Shown piece after piece: positions 33,648-46,389 of a stretch of DNA of 64,000 nucleotides (within the stretch, counting starts at the first letter, position 1; the number at the start of each line of letters is the position of its first letter). The stretch is from NCBI GenBank assembly GCA_019057475.1, contig DXJO01000028.1:1-64000 (forward strand). Reading direction: 5' to 3'. A program made the translations under genes and the position numbers. The notes below the pieces were generated by a model that searched no databases, had not been told where the DNA came from, and saw only the letters and a program-made list of their open reading frames with translations. This stretch comes from Candidatus Thorarchaeota archaeon. GTDB lineage: Archaea; Asgardarchaeota; Thorarchaeia; Thorarchaeales; Thorarchaeaceae.

Positions 33648-34175
33648 ATGGTCGTACGTAGGTCCACTTCCGATTTAGCTTTCCGTAACTGGGTTCTAGA
33701 GCAGCCTGAAGGAGAAACGCTGCTTAGGTGCTATCAGTGTGGACGATGCACCAGCGCTTGCCCAGTCGCAGCGATTGACAACTCATTCAATCCTCGACTG
33801 TTCCTTCAAAAGATCCTGCTTGCTGATGAGTCCTTGGCTGAGGAACAGCTAGTCTGGACTTGCTTGACCTGCGAGCAATGCGAGGTTAGATGTCCCGAGC
33901 ATGTCAAGATACCGCATCTGCTTATTCTGGCGAAAGTCAGGGGCCTTGTGGGAGGCAACATACCTCAGGCAGCTCTCGACAGGGCAAGGGCAATACTCGC
34001 TGGTGGACGCATCATTATGGTGAACGAATCTATGCTCAAGACCAGAGACAAGATGGGTCTCCCCGACCTTGGCCAGCCTCCAGTTGACCAAATCGCAAGT
34101 GTGCTTAAGGAAATTGGGCTTGCAAAGAAGTTGGAGAATGTGGAGTCAGTATATGGAGGTGGGAGCAATGAGTAA
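33648..34175 (+). CDS. hdrC: Heterodisulfide reductase subunit C-like ferredoxin
   Basis: 175 aa. ATG 33648 is chosen because GGTGG lies 11 bases upstream; the longer TTG frame at 33618 lacks support. Two CxxCxxCxxxC(P) motifs bind [4Fe-4S] clusters: CYQCGRCTSACP (Cys 28, 31, 34, 38) and CLTCEQCEVRCP (Cys 72, 75, 78, 82). The C-terminal ~90 residues are helical (VRGLVGGNIPQAALDRARAI). HdrC passes electrons between HdrA and HdrB. The last 8 bases overlap the start of hdrB. First gene of a six-gene operon. Confidence 0.92.
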   Translation: MVVRRSTSDLAFRNWVLEQPEGETLLRCYQCGRCTSACPVAAIDNSFNPRLFLQKILLADESLAEEQLVWTCLTCEQCEVRCPEHVKIPHLLILAKVRGLVGGNIPQAALDRARAILAGGRIIMVNESMLKTRDKMGLPDLGQPPVDQIASVLKEIGLAKKLENVESVYGGGSNE

Positions 34176-35070
34176 GATGAAGACTTACACTTACTTCCCC
34201 GGATGCATGGTCCCGTTTAGGCTTCCGCATTTCGAGTTGGCCGCACGAGCAGTGCTGAAGAAGCTCGACATAGAGTTGGAGGCGAACCCGGGACATGCCT
34301 GTTGTCCAGAACCCACGACGTTCACAGGAGTCGATTTCGAGGCTTGGATAACGCTCGCCGCTAGAAATGTCGCTGTTAGCGAAACTACTGGATTGGAAAC
34401 TCTTTCTCTCTGTAGTGGTTGTTTCCATACTTTGGCTGTTGCTAACCACATGATTCAGGAAGACGAAAATCTGAAGGGCAGAATCAATGAGCGGCTCAAA
34501 ACGGTCGGGCTGAAGGTGACTGGACGCTTAATTGTCAAGAATATCCTTCATGTTCTTCATGGGGACGTTGGGCTGGAACGAATAAAGAAGGAGATTACTC
34601 ATCCACTCACAGGATTAAAGTTCGCACCCCACTATGGATGCCATCTTGTGAGGCCGCTAGAAGCAACTCACATGGACGATGCTGAGCAACCAAAGTGGAT
34701 GGATGATTTAATAGAAGTCACAGGTGCCGAGGTGGCGGACTTCGAAGACAAGATGGCTTGCTGTGGGGCACCGATTATGCCTTCAGATGCAGACAAAGCC
34801 TTCACACTCACTGCGGACAGAATCGAGAAAATCCGAGCATCAGGCGCGGATGCTATCATAGTAGTTTGCCCGACTTGCTACACTCAGTTGGAAACGCAGC
34901 AGAAAAAGGCAACCGCAAAATTCGATCCGGAGTATAGCATCCCTGTGCTGTATCTGGGCGAGTTACTGGCCATATCGATGGGCATGAAGGACATGGTCAT
35001 ATCTAATGCAAGACGGTATCATCGTGTCAAAGTGGGGCCACTGCTTGAAAAAATCGGAGGTGCCGCATAG
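34168..35070 (+). CDS. hdrB: Heterodisulfide reductase subunit B
   Basis: 300 aa from ATG 34168, overlapping hdrC (ATGAGTAA). Two complete CCG domains: C13, C45-C46, C82-x2-C85 and C158, C198-C199, C234-x2-C237, which fit the CX31-39CCX35-36CxxC rule and can hold the two noncubane [4Fe-4S] clusters that reduce disulfides. So this is a catalytically competent HdrB, not a degenerate CCG protein. Substrate in a non-methanogen is unknown; CoM-S-S-CoB is possible only if those thiols are made. Followed directly by hdrA. Confidence 0.92.
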   Translation: MSKMKTYTYFPGCMVPFRLPHFELAARAVLKKLDIELEANPGHACCPEPTTFTGVDFEAWITLAARNVAVSETTGLETLSLCSGCFHTLAVANHMIQEDENLKGRINERLKTVGLKVTGRLIVKNILHVLHGDVGLERIKKEITHPLTGLKFAPHYGCHLVRPLEATHMDDAEQPKWMDDLIEVTGAEVADFEDKMACCGAPIMPSDADKAFTLTADRIEKIRASGADAIIVVCPTCYTQLETQQKKATAKFDPEYSIPVLYLGELLAISMGMKDMVISNARRYHRVKVGPLLEKIGGAA

Positions 35071-36336
35071 ATGACAAAGACTGTTGTTGTTATCGGAGCT
35101 GGTTTAGCTGGTATTCAAGTCACTCAGCAGCTCACTGACTTGGGTGTTACCGTTCATCTAATCGAAAAGGAGTCTATTATCGGCGGCCTCGCAACACACT
35201 TGGGGCGTGTCTTCCCCACAGGCGACTGTGCTCTTTGTCTAGATGCGTGTGAAGAGCTGTTCGACGGGCATCATCGACGGTGTCAGTACAGAAGTCTACT
35301 GACGTCGAAGAAGAATCTAAAATTATACACTCAGACGGAGATAAGGTCGATAACTGAAGTAGATGGAAAGTTCTCTCTTTCCATTAAATCGCATCCGCGC
35401 TACGTTCTTCTTGACCGATGTGTTGTATGCCTCGAGTGCATCAATGTATGCGACGTTGAAATCCCGGATGAATACGCAATTCGGGGCGGTACTAGAAAAG
35501 CAATCTATCGACCGATATCTCAAGGTGTTCCACTCGTTCCGCTTATTGACATGGACCACTGCACCCAGTGTGGCAAGTGTGTTGAAGTCTGTGGAGTCGA
35601 TGCGATTGACCTTGCAGAGAAAGCTAAGACCCGTACAATCAAAGCTGATGCTCTGATTCTAGCGACGGGCGTTGAGGAGAAGATACCTCTCAATTTGCCC
35701 GGCTATGCTTACAGTGAATCTGACGACATAATCACCCAAAGAGAACTAGCAAGGCTGATTGACCCAACTGGTGATACGGATGGTCAAGTAATCACATCAT
35801 CCGGAGATGCTGCAGCTAAGGTAACGATGATATTATGCGCTGGCAGCCGGGATTTGGAAGCCACTGAGTACTGCTCCCAAGCTTGTTGTACTTACAGCCT
35901 GAAGCACGCAAACATGCTGAGGGACAAGGAGATCGATGTGACAATATGCTACATGGATCTGCGCGTTCAGAAAGCAAGCAACCACTATCTGGACTTGGCA
36001 AGAGAGAAGGGCGTAAAATTCCTCAGAGGAAAGCCTGACCGGGTTGTTGTCAGGAACGGCAAGCCTACTACAATCGTTGAAGATACACAGACCCAGCAAC
36101 GGATGGAGATTGAATCTGACATAGTGGTTCTGGCATCCCCATTATCTCCACTTGCCAGTCAGAGTGAGGTTTTGGCCGATTTCCTGGGTGAATACGGGTT
36201 TGCGTTAAGAGTGGTCAAAGAAGGACGTGTCTATGCGTGTGGCACGGCCACAGGTCCTGAGGATATACCGACCAGTATTGCTGAGGCGAATGCCATTGCA
36301 CTGAGAGTGTATGCAGACTTGGAGGGTGGTCGTTAG
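35071..36336 (+). CDS. hdrA: Short HdrA-like flavoprotein
   Basis: 421 aa, shorter than the ~650-aa methanogen HdrA. Starts with the FAD dinucleotide motif VVVIGAGLAGIQV (GxGxxG at 9-14), then the HdrA Cys motif FPTGDCALCLDAC (Cys 53, 56, 60, 71), two ferredoxin motifs (Cys 117-127 and 164-174: CVVCLECINVC, CTQCGKCVEVC) and the second FAD-binding half with LCAGSRDLEATEYCSQACC. It lacks the N-terminal ferredoxin-like segment of full HdrA. FAD here would take part in splitting electrons. ATG directly follows the hdrB stop, so translation is coupled. Confidence 0.88.
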   Translation: MTKTVVVIGAGLAGIQVTQQLTDLGVTVHLIEKESIIGGLATHLGRVFPTGDCALCLDACEELFDGHHRRCQYRSLLTSKKNLKLYTQTEIRSITEVDGKFSLSIKSHPRYVLLDRCVVCLECINVCDVEIPDEYAIRGGTRKAIYRPISQGVPLVPLIDMDHCTQCGKCVEVCGVDAIDLAEKAKTRTIKADALILATGVEEKIPLNLPGYAYSESDDIITQRELARLIDPTGDTDGQVITSSGDAAAKVTMILCAGSRDLEATEYCSQACCTYSLKHANMLRDKEIDVTICYMDLRVQKASNHYLDLAREKGVKFLRGKPDRVVVRNGKPTTIVEDTQTQQRMEIESDIVVLASPLSPLASQSEVLADFLGEYGFALRVVKEGRVYACGTATGPEDIPTSIAEANAIALRVYADLEGGR

Positions 36337-38301
36337 ATGAAGAAGCTGTTTCTGTGTACCTGCAACAAGACACTCGATAAGAAGCTAGACTTTCTGCGCA
36401 TTGAGAAGGAGCTGAAGGGCGTCTTCGACAGTGTTCAGATTCACGACGCGCTGTGCCTGAAGGAAGGACTTGCCTTTTTGGAATCAGAAGTTTCCAATGA
36501 GGACAGCGTAGTTATTGGAGCCTGCACATCACAAATTATTGGCATGCCCATGTCTGAGAAACTGAAGACTGAGTCTGTTTCCTTTGTGCCTTTGAGAGAA
36601 CACGTGGCATGGGTTCACTCTAACGACTTGAAGGGCGCTTCAAACAAGGCTGTAGTGCTATTGTGTGATGCAGCAATCAGAGTTGACCACATGGATTCCC
36701 CAACGGTTGTGGAGAACCATATGGAGAAGGAGGTCCTAATTGTCGGTGGGGGCATGTGTGGCCTGAAGGTAGCTGCAGACCTTCTACACTTGGGCATTGA
36801 TGTGACAATTCTTGAGCCTTGTCCGTGGGATGATACGGCCTATGTTGAGGCTGGCCAATTCATGGCTGACAAAAATACACTCACGAAAATGGTCAAGGAG
36901 TTGGTATCTGCCACTGCATCCGCGACGACGATATGCTGTACCATAACCGGACTCGAGGGTCGGGCTGGGAAGTATGGCGTGTCCCTCGCGTGTCTTGATG
37001 GAAAAGTATCGACCATTGACTGTGGCTCGATTGTTATTGCGACCAATGTCGAGCAAAAGCCGCCGCCCATGGCAAAGAAGTTACTCTATGGCAAGTCCGA
37101 TCGAACGATCCTCCTCGGGAATCTTGCAACCCTCGTTGAAAAGCAAGGACCGAAGGACGTTAGGACAGTATTGGTAGCAGTTGACCCAACTCATCATCTC
37201 AGTGCTGTTGAGGGCGGTTATCTTCTTCGAGTTGTCACTGAGGCTGCGAAGAAGGGCAACACTGTCATTGTGGCACATTCAAACATAAGAACCGACGATG
37301 AGAACATTTACCGCGCCGCTCGAGAATCTGGTGTCATCTTTGTCAGAGGCACCTTGGAGAAGGCCAAAGATACCAAGGACGGAATGGTCTGCCGGCTGGA
37401 GAATACGCTGGAGTCGCAGATTAGAGAGTTTGTTGTTGATCTACTAGTACTTCAAACAATGACTCGGCCGAGAGGCGATACAGCTGAGCTCGCTAGAATA
37501 GCGGGGTTGAGTCTGGATGAAGATGGATTCATCACGACACGGTACTCGAAGAACAAGCCCGTCCAGACCTCCAAGAGAGGAATCTACATTGCTGGCAATG
37601 GCAAGATGCCAATGAGTATTGATGATGCGATAGCATCCGCCGGGAATGCGGCCCTCGAAGTATTCAAGGATATTCGAACCACCACTCGACGCAAAGGCTG
37701 GATTCCAATCATTGACGAGGAGCAATGTGATGTGTGTGAGGCGTGCATTGAGGCATGTCCGAATGACGCACTGAGACTTGTGGATGGCAAGGTAACTCAC
37801 ATTTCTCAGCATTGCGAGTTTTGTGGCATCTGCGTTTCGGTTTGTCCAACGCGGGCGATTGAGTTCCAATCTCACAGCAAGGAATCGTGGTTTGCCAGGC
37901 TCGAAGCTCTTGCAGAGAATCACAAAAAGATGGAGGGTGAGAAACCCTTCACATTCGTATACGCATGCAGTGAGTGCGCGAATGCATCGATAGACCTTGC
38001 TGGTTTCACCGGAAAGGGCTATCCTACCGGAACCTATGTGATTCAATTCCCGTGCGCGGGAATGGTTTCCCCAATAGAGATTCTGAAAGGGTTGGCGGTT
38101 GGCGCTGAACGCATTGTGGTTGCGCATTGTCCACCTGGCGGCTGTCATCATCAGACGGGAGATCATATGGCTGAGCTTGTTGTAAAATTCACACAGGACA
38201 TGTTGCGAAGCATAGGACAGGACCCTGAACGAGTAAAGGCCACGTATATGATTGCGGCGTTACCTAACAAGATGCAGGAGGAGGTGGCACACCGTGGATA
38301 A
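36337..38301 (+). CDS. HdrA-MvhD fusion protein
   Basis: 654 aa. Residues 1-~130 are the HdrA N-terminal module (CTCNKTLDKKLDF...), then a Rossmann FAD domain (LIVGGGMCGLKVAADLL). This domain lacks the central 'DCxxC' and CCxxxC cysteines of active HdrA, so the flavin site looks degenerate. Two ferredoxin motifs follow (CDVCEACIEACP ~463-475; CEFCGICVSVCP ~491-503). The last ~120 residues are an MvhD domain (FVYACSECANASIDLAGF; CAGMVSPIEILKGLAVGA; AHCPPGGCHHQTGDH), which in methanogens links hydrogenase to Hdr with a [2Fe-2S] cluster. The ATG directly abuts the previous stop; the end overlaps the next gene by 8 bases. Confidence 0.85.
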   Translation: MKKLFLCTCNKTLDKKLDFLRIEKELKGVFDSVQIHDALCLKEGLAFLESEVSNEDSVVIGACTSQIIGMPMSEKLKTESVSFVPLREHVAWVHSNDLKGASNKAVVLLCDAAIRVDHMDSPTVVENHMEKEVLIVGGGMCGLKVAADLLHLGIDVTILEPCPWDDTAYVEAGQFMADKNTLTKMVKELVSATASATTICCTITGLEGRAGKYGVSLACLDGKVSTIDCGSIVIATNVEQKPPPMAKKLLYGKSDRTILLGNLATLVEKQGPKDVRTVLVAVDPTHHLSAVEGGYLLRVVTEAAKKGNTVIVAHSNIRTDDENIYRAARESGVIFVRGTLEKAKDTKDGMVCRLENTLESQIREFVVDLLVLQTMTRPRGDTAELARIAGLSLDEDGFITTRYSKNKPVQTSKRGIYIAGNGKMPMSIDDAIASAGNAALEVFKDIRTTTRRKGWIPIIDEEQCDVCEACIEACPNDALRLVDGKVTHISQHCEFCGICVSVCPTRAIEFQSHSKESWFARLEALAENHKKMEGEKPFTFVYACSECANASIDLAGFTGKGYPTGTYVIQFPCAGMVSPIEILKGLAVGAERIVVAHCPPGGCHHQTGDHMAELVVKFTQDMLRSIGQDPERVKATYMIAALPNKMQEEVAHRG

Positions 38302-39208
38302 ACGTGACCAGCTCATCCAGAAGCTCCGGAACATCGCCGTAAAAACCCCTGAAAATGACGTCGAAGTGCCGGAGAAGGTTGAAGGCTTTGGAACCATCGA
38401 GTACGGCGCACAGACGTGTAGCGCCTGCAAGAAGTGCATCCTAGCCTGCGAGCCTGCCGCGTTGGACATGGACCCAACGATGAATCTTCCTGACTACTTG
38501 AAGGCTACAATTCCACACGACGGCTTCAGGTCCAAGAACCGAGAATCTCTCGTAACCCTCCTACAAGGACTTAGGGAAGAAGGCAATGTAGTGGCCATCT
38601 CGGTTCCTGATGGACTTCCTGGCTATGGTTCTATTGCATGGGCTGCAGATCGGTGCATTGCCTGCGACAAGTGCATTGAGGCTTGTCTTGAGGACTGTCT
38701 TACGTTGGAGAAGACGTACAAGCTACCAGAGATAATCGGCGAGGTGAAACCGCCTCCGTCAATCACCGTGAGTAAGGACTGGGAGCCATTCATACTTTGC
38801 TTTGTGTGTTGGGAGTGCTCGCATGCGGCGGCCGACTTAGCGGGTCTTATGCACTTGCACTATCCCACGAACATCAGAACTATTAGAATACCCTGTCTTG
38901 GCGCGGTCGAACCCATGCACATCATGACCGCATTGGAGAACGGAGTCGATGGAGTCTTGTTGACAGGTTGTCTCCTCTCAGAGTGTCACTATGGAGGAGA
39001 TAGCCCAAAGGCTGGCAATTTCATGCAGTACGACTTCGTAAAGTTCTGGATGGATGTTCTTGAAGAGATTGGCATGGGCGGCAGGATTCATATTGACTCC
39101 GCATCCGCGGCCATGGGCATTAAATTCGCTGATATCGTGAAGGAATTCACTGAGAAAATACAGAATCTGGGGCCCAGCCCGATTCGGGGAAAGCTGGAGG
39201 TGCGGTAG
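38294..39208 (+). CDS. Ferredoxin-MvhD electron-transfer protein
   Basis: 304 aa from GTG 38294; GGAGGAGGTGG directly upstream and the GTGGATAA overlap with the preceding stop decide this start over the longer ORF. Two [4Fe-4S] motifs: CSACKKCILACEP (Cys 42-52) and CIACDKCIEAC (Cys 121-131). The MvhD domain from ~160 has FILCFVCWECSHAAADLAGL, PCLGAVEPMHIMTALENGVD and GCLLSECHYGGDSPKAGN. It is a second MvhD in the same operon, so the complex could dock to two electron donors or form an asymmetric pair. No hydrogenase or formate dehydrogenase gene is in the window. Confidence 0.85.
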   Translation: MDKRDQLIQKLRNIAVKTPENDVEVPEKVEGFGTIEYGAQTCSACKKCILACEPAALDMDPTMNLPDYLKATIPHDGFRSKNRESLVTLLQGLREEGNVVAISVPDGLPGYGSIAWAADRCIACDKCIEACLEDCLTLEKTYKLPEIIGEVKPPPSITVSKDWEPFILCFVCWECSHAAADLAGLMHLHYPTNIRTIRIPCLGAVEPMHIMTALENGVDGVLLTGCLLSECHYGGDSPKAGNFMQYDFVKFWMDVLEEIGMGGRIHIDSASAAMGIKFADIVKEFTEKIQNLGPSPIRGKLEVR

Positions 39209-39209
39209 A

Positions 39210-42200
39210 ATGCCTAAGAAGAAAAAGACTGAAGATCGCATTGGTGTATTTGTTTGTAGCTGCGGGACAAACATTGGTGGAGTTATTGATGTCGATAAAC
39301 TTGCCAAAGAGTTCGAGGACTATCCAGGCGTTGCGTTATCGGCCTGGAACATGTTCACGTGCTCAAAAGAGGGGCAGGTCCGAATTGCAGAAACCATCGA
39401 GGAACAGAACCTTACAGGCGTTGTAGTAGCATCGTGCACGCCGAAGCTTCACGAGGAACTATTCAGGGACATCTTGGAAGAGAAGGGTCTCAATAGGTTT
39501 AGACTAGCACAGGCGAACCTCAGAGAGCACAACACATGGGTTCATGATGACGAACCCGAGAAAGCCTACGAAATAGCTTATGACCTGATTTCAGGAGCAA
39601 TCGAGAGAGCCAAGCTGCTAGAGGACATAGGATTCGAGGAGTATCCAGTTGAAACGAGCGTGCTTGTTGTTGGTGCTGGCGTTTCCGGAATTCAAACAGC
39701 ATTGGATCTCGCTGACAAGGACATCAAAGTTCATCTAATCGAGCGCAATGTTGCTATCGGCGGCTATATGCCCAAGTTGGAGAAGACATTCCCCACCCTC
39801 GATTGTTCCATGTGCATCCTTTCACCAAAACTGAGCGCTGTTGACAGGAGCAAGAATATCGACATACACACATGCACTGAAATCATCGACGTGGAGCGGG
39901 ACTATGGCAACTTCAAAGTCAAACTGCGAACGCGTCCTCGTTACATAGACCTTGAGAAATGCAATGCCTGTGGAGATTGCGTGGAGGTCTGTCCAGTACT
40001 TACCCCCAATGATCATGACCTTGGCATGTCATTGCGAAAAGCAACGTACAAGCCGTATCCCCAAGCAGTCCCCGGTGCCTTCGCAATCGAAAAGCTGGGG
40101 CACGCCGCGTGCAAGATATCCTGTCCTGCACATGTGAGTTGTCAAGCATTTATCACGCTTACACGTGAAGGCACGTACGATAAGGCTCTCAGTCTCGTGA
40201 GAGAAGCAATACCGTTCCCCGGCTCGTTGGGACGTGTATGTCCAGCTTTCTGTGAAGACCAGTGCGAGAGAGGAACACACGACAAGAGCGTGAGCATCAG
40301 AAACGTTCACCGATTCCTCCACGATTATGAGCTTGAAACCGGACCTGTTGAGTCTGTTGAACCAGCAATAGACAAGGAGGAGCAAGTAGCGGTAGTCGGT
40401 GGTGGACCCGCAGGGATTGCATGTGCTCTATACCTTGCCAGACTTGGATATCCAGTGACGGTCTTCGAAGAAAAGAAGGAGGCGGGTGGCTTGCTCAGAT
40501 GGGGCATTCCTGAACATCGTCTACCTCGGGATATCCTCCGATCAGAAATTGCTTTCGTAGAACAGCACGGAGTCAAGATTGTTACCGGAACTCGGGTTGA
40601 TTCCATTGAACAGTTGAAGAAGCAGGGTTACAAAGCTGTGTTCCTCGGAACTGGTGCGCCTGTAAGTTCACAACTGAGACTGACTGGTGAAAACGCGAAA
40701 GGCGTTCATCACGCACTCGACTTCCTTTATCGCGTTAATAGTGGTAAGAAGGTCCAGCTTGGAAAGCATGTCGCCATCATAGGAGGTGGCAACTCTGCGG
40801 TTGACTCGGCAAGGGTCGCTTTGCGCCTTGGAGCGGACACAGTGACAATTGTCTATCGAAGGTCAAGGACAGAGATGCCGGCCATCCAGAGCGAGATAGA
40901 TGATGCAGTGAAAGAGGGCGTGAAACTCAAACTGCTTACTAACCCCGTTGAGGTCTTAGTGTCCAATGGTGCAGTATTCGGCTTGAAGTGCATCAAGATG
41001 AAGCTGGGAGAACCCGACGATTCAGGAAGAAGGCGTCCCATTCCAATCCCCGGTTCAGAGTTTGATATTGAGGTTGACGACATGATCGTCGCCATTGGCC
41101 AGAAGGTGGGGCCTGACGGTATACACTCCGGGCTCGAATTGACACGTTGGGGTACTGTCGATGTGGATCCTCTCACAATGCAGACAAGCATGGATGACGT
41201 GTTTGCGGGTGGGGACCTTGTGACTGGTCCAGCTCTCGCCGTGGAGGCGGTTGGTGCGGGGAATGAAGCGGCGGAGTCAATTCATAGGTACCTCCGCAGT
41301 CTTGACCTTCGTGAAGGCAGGCCATTTGTCCTGCCTCAAGCGCCCCCGCCAGATGTTGCTCCTGATGCACTCCCTGGTGGTTCACGAGCCAGGATGAAGA
41401 AATTGTCTGCAAAGAAGAGAGCAACCAATTTTGACGAAGTGGAGCTTGGTTTCACTGAGAAAATTGCAGTCAAGGAATCTGAGCGTTGTCTTGGTTGTGC
41501 AATCTGTTGCGAGTGCAAGCTATGCGTCGAGGCTTGTCAAAAGGATGCCATCGACCATTACATGAAGGAAGAGGTGTTTGAACTGACTGTTGGCGCGATA
41601 GTTGCTGCCACAGGGTTCCAAGAGATAAGTATGGAAGAGCTGCCAGAATACGGTGGCGGGAAGTTCCAAAGGGTAATTACAGCTGGTCAGTACGGTCGGC
41701 TGTTGAGCCTTGTCGGTCCGACGGCCGGGAAGATAATGATCCCTCCCGACTATACTGAAACGCCAAAGCGCATTGCTTACATTAACTGCGCAGGGTCTCG
41801 TGACGAGGGTTGCAGACCATGGTGCTGCAACTTTGGATGCATGTACACACTTAGGCACGCAGAGATGACCAACCGTGAATATGGCGACTCGATGGAGCAA
41901 TGGATAATCTATCATGAGCTCCGTGCAGGAGGAAAGGAGTACGAGCAATTTTACAGGAGAGTAAGAGAGCACGGTATTCGTTTTGTGCGAGGCTTCCCCA
42001 GCGATTTCACTGAGGAAAAGGACGGTACAATTAGCTTCTCAATCTTCGACCAAGGATCGGGCCAGCTCCTTCGGTTGAACTTTGATCTCGTTGTGCTCAC
42101 AATGGCGGTTGATCCGTCGGAGGGAACTGCAGAACTTGCACACATACTGGGAGTTGACAGAAGCGAAGGTGGCTTCATGAAGGAGCTACATCCGAAACTC

Positions 42201-42614
42201 GAGCCAGTGAACACAAAGGCTCGCGGAGTGTACATTGCAGGCACGTGTCAAAGTCCGAAGGATATCCCGTCTTGCGTTTCGGATGCAAAGGCTGCAGCAA
42301 GCGCAGCAGCATCACATGTGCTCAAGGGCATAGTAAGAGTGCAGATGGACAAGGCGATGATCGATGAGGACATCTGTATTGGGTGCGGGCTCTGTGAGAA
42401 GGTATGTCCGTTCGATGCTATCACAATGAAGGATCGAGATGAAGGGCCACAGCTTGCAGAGGTCAACTCGCTTCTATGCACAGGTTGTGGTAAGTGTCAG
42501 GTGGTCTGCCCCACTGGAGCAGCAAAGCGCAAGCATTACACGACTGAGCAAATCGAAGCAGAGGTTCTTGGTCTGATAGCGTCTCACAGGAGGCAGCAGG
42601 CAGCGCGACACTAG
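39210..42614 (+). CDS. HdrA with an inserted GltD/NfnB-like NAD(P)H oxidoreductase module
   Basis: 1134 aa. Residues 1-~290 are HdrA: N-terminal CSCGTNIGG module, FAD motif VLVVGAGVSGIQT (~151), FPTLDCSMCILSPK (~195) and CNACGDCVEVCP (~252), then the HdrA 'RKATYKPYPQAVP' segment. Instead of the next ferredoxin, a ~410-residue GltD/NfnB-type module follows (~293-700): CKISCPAHVSCQAF, CPAFCEDQCERG cluster ligands, FAD motif VVGGGPAGIACALYLARLG, NAD(P) motif IIGGGNSAVDSARVALRLG and the closing FAGGDLVTGPA. HdrA then resumes with CLGCAICCECKLCVEAC, INCAGSRDEGCRPWCC, and two C-terminal [4Fe-4S] motifs (CIGCGLCEKVCP, CTGCGKCQVVCP). Two FADs of HdrA/GltD type plus an NAD(P) site in one chain point to electron bifurcation with NAD(P)H. 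Last gene of the hdr operon. Confidence 0.9.
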   Translation: MPKKKKTEDRIGVFVCSCGTNIGGVIDVDKLAKEFEDYPGVALSAWNMFTCSKEGQVRIAETIEEQNLTGVVVASCTPKLHEELFRDILEEKGLNRFRLAQANLREHNTWVHDDEPEKAYEIAYDLISGAIERAKLLEDIGFEEYPVETSVLVVGAGVSGIQTALDLADKDIKVHLIERNVAIGGYMPKLEKTFPTLDCSMCILSPKLSAVDRSKNIDIHTCTEIIDVERDYGNFKVKLRTRPRYIDLEKCNACGDCVEVCPVLTPNDHDLGMSLRKATYKPYPQAVPGAFAIEKLGHAACKISCPAHVSCQAFITLTREGTYDKALSLVREAIPFPGSLGRVCPAFCEDQCERGTHDKSVSIRNVHRFLHDYELETGPVESVEPAIDKEEQVAVVGGGPAGIACALYLARLGYPVTVFEEKKEAGGLLRWGIPEHRLPRDILRSEIAFVEQHGVKIVTGTRVDSIEQLKKQGYKAVFLGTGAPVSSQLRLTGENAKGVHHALDFLYRVNSGKKVQLGKHVAIIGGGNSAVDSARVALRLGADTVTIVYRRSRTEMPAIQSEIDDAVKEGVKLKLLTNPVEVLVSNGAVFGLKCIKMKLGEPDDSGRRRPIPIPGSEFDIEVDDMIVAIGQKVGPDGIHSGLELTRWGTVDVDPLTMQTSMDDVFAGGDLVTGPALAVEAVGAGNEAAESIHRYLRSLDLREGRPFVLPQAPPPDVAPDALPGGSRARMKKLSAKKRATNFDEVELGFTEKIAVKESERCLGCAICCECKLCVEACQKDAIDHYMKEEVFELTVGAIVAATGFQEISMEELPEYGGGKFQRVITAGQYGRLLSLVGPTAGKIMIPPDYTETPKRIAYINCAGSRDEGCRPWCCNFGCMYTLRHAEMTNREYGDSMEQWIIYHELRAGGKEYEQFYRRVREHGIRFVRGFPSDFTEEKDGTISFSIFDQGSGQLLRLNFDLVVLTMAVDPSEGTAELAHILGVDRSEGGFMKELHPKLEPVNTKARGVYIAGTCQSPKDIPSCVSDAKAAASAAASHVLKGIVRVQMDKAMIDEDICIGCGLCEKVCPFDAITMKDRDEGPQLAEVNSLLCTGCGKCQVVCPTGAAKRKHYTTEQIEAEVLGLIASHRRQQAARH

Positions 42615-45027: not shown

Positions 45028-46389
45028 ATGGTTGACCAAATCGCAATTATTGGATGTGGTGCCGCTGGCGCAACTGTCGCAATGCAGGCAAGGAAGTTCA
45101 ATCGAAAAGTAGGAATCTCGATTATTAACAAGGAACCGTACTCTCAGTATTCCCGATGTGGCCTTCCTTACACGATTTCTGGAAAGGTAAAGACATTTGA
45201 CGATCTTATCCTCATGCCGGTTGACAGCTGGTCCGGACTCAGGATTGACGCCAAGTTTGGCACAACAGTTACAAAGATTGACCACAAAGCCAAGACATTG
45301 TTCTACGAGGGCCCAGAGGGTTTGGGGAGCTGTGAATATGATGCTCTGATCTTCGCAACTGGTGCACGCAACGCTGACCCTCCGATAAAGGGTCTCGACA
45401 AGAAGCGCGTGTACGGCCTGAGAACTCTGGACGACGCCAAAGCCCTTGCCGCAGAAGTTGGCAAAACAAAGAATGCCGTCATCATTGGCGGTGGCCTTGT
45501 AGGTATGGAGGCTGCGGAAGCATTCCATGAGAAAGGCGTGAACGTGACCGTCGTTGAATTCCTACCCAACATCCTTCTGGCGATGGTTGACCCCGATATG
45601 GCAAGTATCGTAGAGGACCACTGCAAAGAGCACGGTCTGGAGATACTCACCAATACTGCCGCCCAAGAGATTACTGGTGATGAAACGCCCCGCACTGTAT
45701 TAGTTCAAAATAGAGAAACTCAGGAAATAAAGGAGATACCTGCCGACATAGTCGTTGTATCGACTGGTGTGAGAGCTGTCACCGATCTTGCAGCATCAAT
45801 CGGTGCGGAGATTGGCACGACAAGGGGCATCAAGACCAACGAGCGAATGATGACGAACTTGAAGGACGTCTACGCCGTCGGCGACTGTTCCGAGAATGTT
45901 GGATTCATGACGAGAAAACCCGTTCCCGGTGGTCTCGGAACTGTTGCAGTGAGACAGGCACGTGTTGCAGGAATCAATGCTGCAGGTGGTGACGTGAAGT
46001 TCCCTGGAATTGTTGGAGCTAAGGTCACCAAACTGTTTGGGCTTGAAGTTGCTAGCACAGGCTTCATTGAATACACTGCTAAAATCTTCGAAGTAGAAAT
46101 CGTCAAGGGTTCTGTTAAAGGGAGCACCAAGCCCCATTACTATGCTGGTGGGAAAGATATCAAGGTCAAGACGTTCTATGAGAAGGGCACAGGGAAGCTC
46201 GTGGGCGGCCAGATTGTGGGTCTCGAAGACGCTGCGATGAGAATCAATGTGATTACGCTCGGAATTCAGCACAAGATAACTGCGGCTGACCTATTTAACA
46301 TGGAGAATTGCTACGCCCCTGCGATTTGCGACACATGGGATCCGCTGGTCACATCTGCAGAAGCGGCTCGACGCAGACTGAAGATCTGA
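45028..46389 (+). CDS. CoA-disulfide reductase / NADH oxidase-like flavoprotein
   Basis: 453 aa. Pyridine nucleotide-disulfide oxidoreductase layout: FAD motif IAIIGCGAAGATVAMQARKF, single redox Cys in QYSRCGLPYTISG (the CoADR/NOX-type active Cys near position 43), NAD(P) motif VIIGGGLVGMEAAEAFHEKG, second FAD motif VYAVGDCSE and a C-terminal dimerisation domain. Family activities are CoA-disulfide reduction, NAD(P)H oxidation to water or peroxide, or polysulfide reduction; they cannot be told apart here. GGAGTG precedes the ATG. Stand-alone. Confidence 0.85.
   Translation: MVDQIAIIGCGAAGATVAMQARKFNRKVGISIINKEPYSQYSRCGLPYTISGKVKTFDDLILMPVDSWSGLRIDAKFGTTVTKIDHKAKTLFYEGPEGLGSCEYDALIFATGARNADPPIKGLDKKRVYGLRTLDDAKALAAEVGKTKNAVIIGGGLVGMEAAEAFHEKGVNVTVVEFLPNILLAMVDPDMASIVEDHCKEHGLEILTNTAAQEITGDETPRTVLVQNRETQEIKEIPADIVVVSTGVRAVTDLAASIGAEIGTTRGIKTNERMMTNLKDVYAVGDCSENVGFMTRKPVPGGLGTVAVRQARVAGINAAGGDVKFPGIVGAKVTKLFGLEVASTGFIEYTAKIFEVEIVKGSVKGSTKPHYYAGGKDIKVKTFYEKGTGKLVGGQIVGLEDAAMRINVITLGIQHKITAADLFNMENCYAPAICDTWDPLVTSAEAARRRLKI

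Follow-up and report, generated by a model that had tools for sequence, protein, structure and literature searches.

Hdr-type complexes are modular electron hubs, and the Asgard archaea have many that are uncharacterised. Among described systems, the Qmo complex of Gram-positive sulfate reducers occurs without QmoC, as QmoAB-HdrBC (PMC10504309, PMC4759654). Heterodimers of HdrA have been predicted in ANME archaea on the basis of a complementary pattern, in which the N-terminal domain and Cys197 are found on different partners (PMC9012536). HdrA proteins with an inserted GltD-like domain (type III HdrA, or HdrA-NfnB) are known from ANME-1 and Bathyarchaeota (PMC12054007, PMC9012536), and two separate GltD insertions have already been inferred in methane archaea (PMC12054007). 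In Stn, the corresponding module is a non-bifurcating NADPH conduit (PMC10482914). For HdrA itself, the residue pair E356 and K409 is the published signature of bifurcation (PMC9430772, PMC12054007).

Here we describe a six-gene Hdr operon of a Candidatus Thorarchaeota archaeon, for which our searches of the open-licence literature found no published description. The most informative fact about it, and one that the window itself does not show, is that relatives carry an alternative operon, referred to below as form B.

Organization and conservation of the operon

The window analysed is the whole stretch of 64,000 nucleotides at positions 1 to 64,000 of contig DXJO01000028.1 (C8; forward strand, assembly GCA_019057475.1), from a genome of 3.34 Mb. 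Six consecutive genes on the + strand fill positions 33648-42614 (Table 1), in the order HdrC, HdrB, short HdrA, HdrA-MvhD, ferredoxin-MvhD and HdrA with a GltD insertion. A sequence-only reading of the window had proposed a six-gene Hdr operon here, and its coordinates and domains hold, as does the gene order, which is conserved in relatives. That reading also had every junction overlapping or touching, which is correct for the first four (-11, 0, 0 and -5 nt); the last is a gap of +1 nt. The complete cluster ligands that it had assigned to HdrC and HdrB are likewise in place, with two CxxCxxCxxxC and two CCG motifs, respectively, present in all orthologs. All relatives with contigs extending that far upstream have an hdrC1 ortholog in this place; for hdrB1, alternative upstream starts are possible.

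Table 1. Features of the operon, in coordinates of the window
Feature	Position	Strand	Description
hdrC1	33648..34175	+	175 aa; two CxxCxxCxxxC [4Fe-4S] motifs: CYQCGRCTSAC, CLTCEQCEVRC
hdrB1	34165..35070	+	301 aa; two complete CCG motifs (non-cubane [4Fe-4S] sites of HdrB); TIGR03288, 1.8e-81
QmoA-like short HdrA	35071..36336	+	421 aa; FAD/TrxR domain and inserted ferredoxin (8 Cys)
QmoB-like degenerate HdrA with C-terminal ferredoxin and MvhD	36337..38301	+	654 aa
Ferredoxin-MvhD protein	38297..39208	+	303 aa; two CxxCxxCxxxC motifs and FlpD/MvhD domain; presumed bridge
HdrA with inserted GltD (type III layout)	39210..42614	+	1134 aa
GltD insertion	40104..41300	+	aa 299-697 of the third HdrA; Fer4_20 domain, FAD fold GGGPAG, nucleotide fold GGGNSA then VYRRS
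Mosaic segment, approximate extent	39930..41579	+	aa 241-790; inserted-ferredoxin halves, GltD and linker; from sliding identity

All six genes are under purifying selection, with dN/dS between two congeners (this genome and G005) ranging from 0.04 to 0.12 (HdrC, 0.04; HdrB, 0.08; QmoA-like, 0.12; QmoB-like, 0.09; ferredoxin-MvhD, 0.05; HdrA-GltD, 0.05). Together with the gene order and tight junctions, which recur in relatives, these values place the operon far beyond chance. A scan for sigma-70-type promoters and terminators is uninformative for an archaeal host. A gene for a pyridine nucleotide-disulphide oxidoreductase with a dimerisation domain (NADH oxidase/CoA-disulfide reductase-like) lies 2.4 kb downstream of the operon, at 45028-46389, and is absent from the genes adjoining the operon in G005.

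An HdrA divided between two proteins

Cofactor ligands were mapped on Methanothermococcus HdrA (5odc) and on paralogues from the same genome. The QmoA-like short HdrA is without the N-terminal domain and the C-terminal ferredoxin; it keeps the FAD fold, the inserted ferredoxin with eight Cys, Cys197, K409 and equivalents of the TrxR-domain cluster Cys 386, 399, 403 and 404. Its residue at the position of E356 is Ala, and among its orthologs this is Ala or, in one, Gly. The QmoB-like protein keeps the N-domain Cys 7, 9, 40 and 63, the Rossmann GxGxxG, two [4Fe-4S] motifs and the [2Fe-2S] Cys of MvhD, and has lost Cys197, the inserted ferredoxin, the four TrxR-domain cluster Cys and K409. The degenerate flavin site noted earlier for this HdrA-MvhD protein is therefore real, and it is degenerate in every ortholog; given its dN/dS, the site sits in a gene that is under selection and is maintained rather than decaying.

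The QmoA-like and QmoB-like proteins are complementary halves of one HdrA: neither is complete, and jointly they have all HdrA domains. Since the N-terminal cluster domain is on one and Cys197 on the other, an asymmetric heterodimer is predicted.

A third HdrA with an inserted GltD cassette

The last protein of the operon had been described as an HdrA-GltD hybrid. Both parts are present, and the description can be refined: the HdrA is complete and houses GltD within its inserted-ferredoxin domain. In every ortholog covering the sites, residues 356 and 409 are Gly and Arg, and the cluster Cys pattern is shifted, to CC-x3-C instead of C-x3-CC. The E356/K409 pair is thus incomplete in all three HdrA-type proteins of the operon (Gly/Arg in the third HdrA, Ala/Lys in the QmoA-like protein, neither residue in the QmoB-like protein) and, judged by the published criterion, none of the three carries the full bifurcation signature. 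Both Glu and Lys are retained in HdrA proteins encoded elsewhere in the genome, on contigs C42, C18, C6 (a 1155-aa protein) and C29, among them both other HdrA-GltD proteins. Loss of E356 and K409 through the acquisition of GltD was rejected as an explanation, since Gly/Arg is also found in the HdrA of form B, which has no GltD.

The insert matches GltD-type chains of Stn, Nfn and glutamate synthase. Its nucleotide fold, GGGNSA...YRRS, points to NADP(H) by the criterion of PMC12054007, the choice of NADP over NAD being a motif argument. At the proximal cluster there is a Cys at the position of Stn Cys114 and a His where Nfn has Glu and Stn has Lys170; this His is a putative cluster ligand. With respect to the aligned cluster ligand, GltD here is more like the NADPH module of Stn than like Nfn. 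Because the Stn module is non-bifurcating, a conduit is the safer reading for GltD here.

The protein shares 69-83 per cent identity with form-B HdrA across the N-domain, both TrxR parts and the C-terminal ferredoxin, falling to 42-49 and 29-32 per cent for the two inserted-ferredoxin halves. Compared with the HdrA-GltD paralogues on C29, the FAD/nucleotide domain of GltD is 61-66 per cent identical and the second ferredoxin half up to 71 per cent, with HdrA flanks at 34-52 per cent. Relative divergence, taken as the ratio of flank to cassette, comes to 3.2 (bootstrap 2.3-4.5; random-split control 0.7-1.4). By these identities the protein reads as a mosaic, its flanks closest to form-B HdrA and its GltD cassette closest to the HdrA-GltD proteins encoded beside hydrogenases in the same genome. 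The same contrast is seen between the two C29 paralogues (C29a and C29b), GltD being more conserved than HdrA, suggesting that cassettes may have moved repeatedly. Alternatively, slower evolution of GltD between paralogues may be the source of the mosaic; counting against this, GltD is the less conserved part within form A.

Two forms of the operon in one family

With the ferredoxin-MvhD protein as query, a survey of 227 genomes of the phylum found an ortholog in 13, all in three genera (g1, g5 and g3) of one family. Form A ends with HdrA-GltD and is complete in the operon studied here and in G005, G035 and G226; in G010 and G034 the contig ends within HdrA-GltD. In form B (G217, G223, G224, G032 and G019), an HdrA of 676-679 aa without GltD is followed by HdrC2-HdrB2. 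The contigs of G006 and G001 stop earlier, so their form cannot be read from HdrA. G027 (C1:232000-250000; L087) has a form-B-like HdrA with neither GltD nor HdrC2B2; a run of N cuts its QmoB-like gene, and an assembly gap and real loss are both possible. A second HdrC-HdrB pair is thus found in five of the six operons without GltD, and the generalization that every such operon has HdrC2B2 is weakened by G027.

Trees of the operon part A from B with a support of 100. By contrast, in a MutS tree the g5 genomes carrying A group with those carrying B, so the history must include either transfer or old paralogy with sorting. Since there is a single A/B split, finding GltD where form B has HdrC2B2 counts as one event rather than as a statistical association. 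The HdrB of the HdrC-HdrB-QmoA-QmoB cluster on C18 shares 70-75 per cent identity with HdrB2, and form-A genomes also have a cluster of this type. A peptide-pattern scan of contigs with the QmoB-like protein returned only near-identical Thorarchaeota matches (94-96 per cent protein identity); it missed known g3 and g5 orthologs and says little on distribution outside the phylum.

In the form-B genome G223 (L084 12991-15001), genes for ETF beta and then ETF alpha with ferredoxin motifs lie 3' of HdrB2 on the same strand. G224 (L086) has two genes of the same size and order there, with gaps of 82 and 53 nt; the domain scan covered only the L084 pair.

Genomic partners and candidate substrates

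The earlier observation that the operon has no hydrogenase extends to its contig, on which a domain search found no [NiFe]-hydrogenase or molybdopterin oxidoreductase domain. Such domains do co-occur in the genome, on other contigs only (C29, C6, C21 and C7), with [NiFe]-hydrogenases on C29 and C6. Neither MCR alpha nor DsrC was found in the genome, in searches whose positive controls worked, making CoM-S-S-CoB and DsrC unlikely as substrates of HdrB. The APS reductase domain PF12139 had no match in the genome, and none in control genomes either.

Other Hdr loci were observed in this survey. At about 44.4-66.5 kb of C29 (L045 4376-19901, L046 1-6647), two Hdr-GltD-MvhD clusters lie next to each other, and both have an MvhD of their own and a [NiFe]-hydrogenase pair at the end. 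The large subunits of the two hydrogenases have identical scores, a possible recent duplication. On C18 (L047 7941-15055), and at L062 8021-15131, the next gene after the HdrC-HdrB-QmoA-QmoB cluster encodes a protein of 760 aa. It has long stretches that look helical, a weak match of HTH type, no known enzyme domain and, at its C-terminus, a two-cluster ferredoxin like that of the ferredoxin-MvhD protein. Also on C18 (L048 7941-16054), an aldehyde ferredoxin oxidoreductase and a polyferredoxin are encoded beside HdrA-MvhD and HdrBC, possibly as an AOR-Hdr complex.

A proposed electron path and its alternatives

We propose, giving the idea an even chance, that the operon encodes one soluble, NAD(P)H-linked composite of Qmo and Hdr modules that would exchange electrons between NAD(P)H and the disulfide or thiol on which HdrB1 acts. 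We infer co-transcription from gene order, and assembly from gene order and ligands; as the sequence-only reading had supposed, a single complex of the six proteins is likely, given the conserved tight linkage. The QmoA-like and QmoB-like proteins would form an obligate heterodimer serving HdrC1B1, with the ferredoxin-MvhD protein as its wire to the third HdrA. The exchange of electrons with NAD(P)H in form A would go via the FAD of GltD, its [4Fe-4S] clusters and HdrA; in form B, HdrC2B2 may take the place of GltD. The full path, which could run in either direction, would lead from NAD(P)H through the GltD FAD and clusters, HdrA, ferredoxin-MvhD, the QmoB-like protein, the QmoA-like FAD and HdrC1 to HdrB1. 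The likely net reaction is one of NAD(P)H with a disulfide or thiol substrate of HdrB1, and ferredoxin is a possible third partner at the inserted ferredoxin of the QmoA-like protein. The flavin of the third HdrA would probably be a relay, its E/K pair being lost, and that of GltD a conduit; if there is bifurcation at all, the QmoA-like flavin, with K409 kept and E356 lost, would be the best candidate site. More speculatively, and with doubt outweighing confidence, GltD cassettes may move between HdrA backbones in Thorarchaeota at one fixed insertion point, here replacing a second HdrBC reductase unit and turning a three-flavoprotein Qmo/Hdr complex with two disulfide reactions into an NAD(P)H enzyme, as a natural swap of modules on a conserved docking HdrA that gave up bifurcation.

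The operon had at first been read as encoding an asymmetric, possibly new, bifurcating complex. Asymmetry is upheld by the complementary N-domain and Cys197; the tandem-HdrA layout of QmoA/QmoB and type III HdrA are both known, so taken singly neither is novel; and bifurcation is weakened because each of the three HdrA-type proteins has an incomplete E356/K409 pair. In true flavin-based bifurcation, NAD(P)H would be oxidised at GltD and its electrons divided at one flavin, that of the QmoA-like protein, or at two, so that ferredoxin and the HdrB1 disulfide are reduced together; confurcation would be the reverse. Hdr and Nfn relatives do bifurcate, the QmoA-like protein retains K409, the TrxR-domain cluster and the ferredoxin-docking domain, the cluster chain looks complete, and the GltD-bearing HdrA of M. 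thermoacetica keeps both E/K pairs (PMC9430772). Nonetheless, we consider bifurcation somewhat unlikely here, given the Ala (Gly in one) in place of E356 in QmoA-like orthologs, the Gly/Arg of the third HdrA where all published type III HdrA keep both residues (PMC12054007), and a GltD without the Glu cluster ligand of Nfn.

It is less probable again that the operon encodes two separate, co-regulated enzymes that are not joined, HdrC1B1-QmoA-QmoB and ferredoxin-MvhD with HdrA (with GltD or HdrC2B2). Wherever the operon can be read, junctions overlap and the order is fixed; proteins of the ferredoxin-MvhD kind connect HdrA with its partners; and none of the genomes seen has one complete half alone on an intact contig. 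Such a division would nevertheless fit the separate HdrC-HdrB-QmoA-QmoB cluster on C18, which has no third HdrA, the provision in form B of an HdrA with its own HdrC2B2, and G027, in which the downstream half adjoins a gap. Lastly, the complex might dock a hydrogenase or other enzyme encoded elsewhere via its MvhD domains, with GltD as an accessory: the genome does have [NiFe]-hydrogenases, the closest HdrA-GltD paralogues adjoin hydrogenases, and MvhD is the usual hydrogenase adaptor. We regard this as very improbable, since the hydrogenases on C29 come with MvhD genes of their own alongside and, with 12 MvhD domains in the genome, sharing is not needed.

Comparison with known systems

Like QmoAB-HdrBC, the operon has a short HdrA (QmoA; FAD fold, no N-domain) adjoining an HdrA-MvhD protein (QmoB), together with HdrC and HdrB, a likeness in layout and ligands. 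Unlike it, the operon contains no Apr or Sat and has two extra genes, for ferredoxin-MvhD and HdrA-GltD. The ANME tandem pairs HdrA5/6 and HdrA12/13 also have one copy with the N-domain and without Cys197 and another with Cys197 and without the N-domain; linkage to ferredoxin-MvhD and a type III HdrA is not among the features described for them in the passages concerned (PMC9012536). As in type III HdrA, a GltD/NfnB-like domain lies inside the inserted-ferredoxin domain; however, published members all keep K409 and E356 (PMC12054007), where the protein here has Arg and Gly, and it is partnered with a QmoAB-like pair and no hydrogenase. It also has GGGNSA then YRR as against the reported GXGXXG, although which of two Rossmann motifs that paper intended is uncertain.

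The HdrABC-MvhD-MetVF complex of Moorella thermoacetica similarly combines a GltD-bearing HdrA, two HdrA TrxR domains and MvhD without a hydrogenase (PMC9430772, PMC9012536), but its HdrA is fused, with both E/K pairs, and is accompanied by MetVF, whereas here there are three separate HdrA-type proteins and no MetVF in the operon. Dred_1325-1330 of Desulfotomaculum reducens shares HdrC, HdrB, a large HdrA with NADH-binding domains, HdrA and MvhD, and differs in gene order, in an extra formate-dehydrogenase-like gene and in being bacterial and sulfate-induced (PMC4759654). The two CCG motifs of HdrB are as in HdrABC-MvhADG, although here the cluster has no MvhAG hydrogenase and the E356 and K409 of the bifurcating FAD are incomplete. 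Unlike in Nfn, the alignment column of the Glu ligand to the proximal cluster holds His.

Because the two forms differ by one module on an orthologous HdrA, a comparison of two such close natural variants makes it testable what GltD does in type III HdrA and whether HdrA can act as a non-bifurcating relay. With relatives that share its core and differ in the end module, the operon seems to be a naturally occurring plug-in version of an enzyme type already known, and not a wholly new bifurcating machine.
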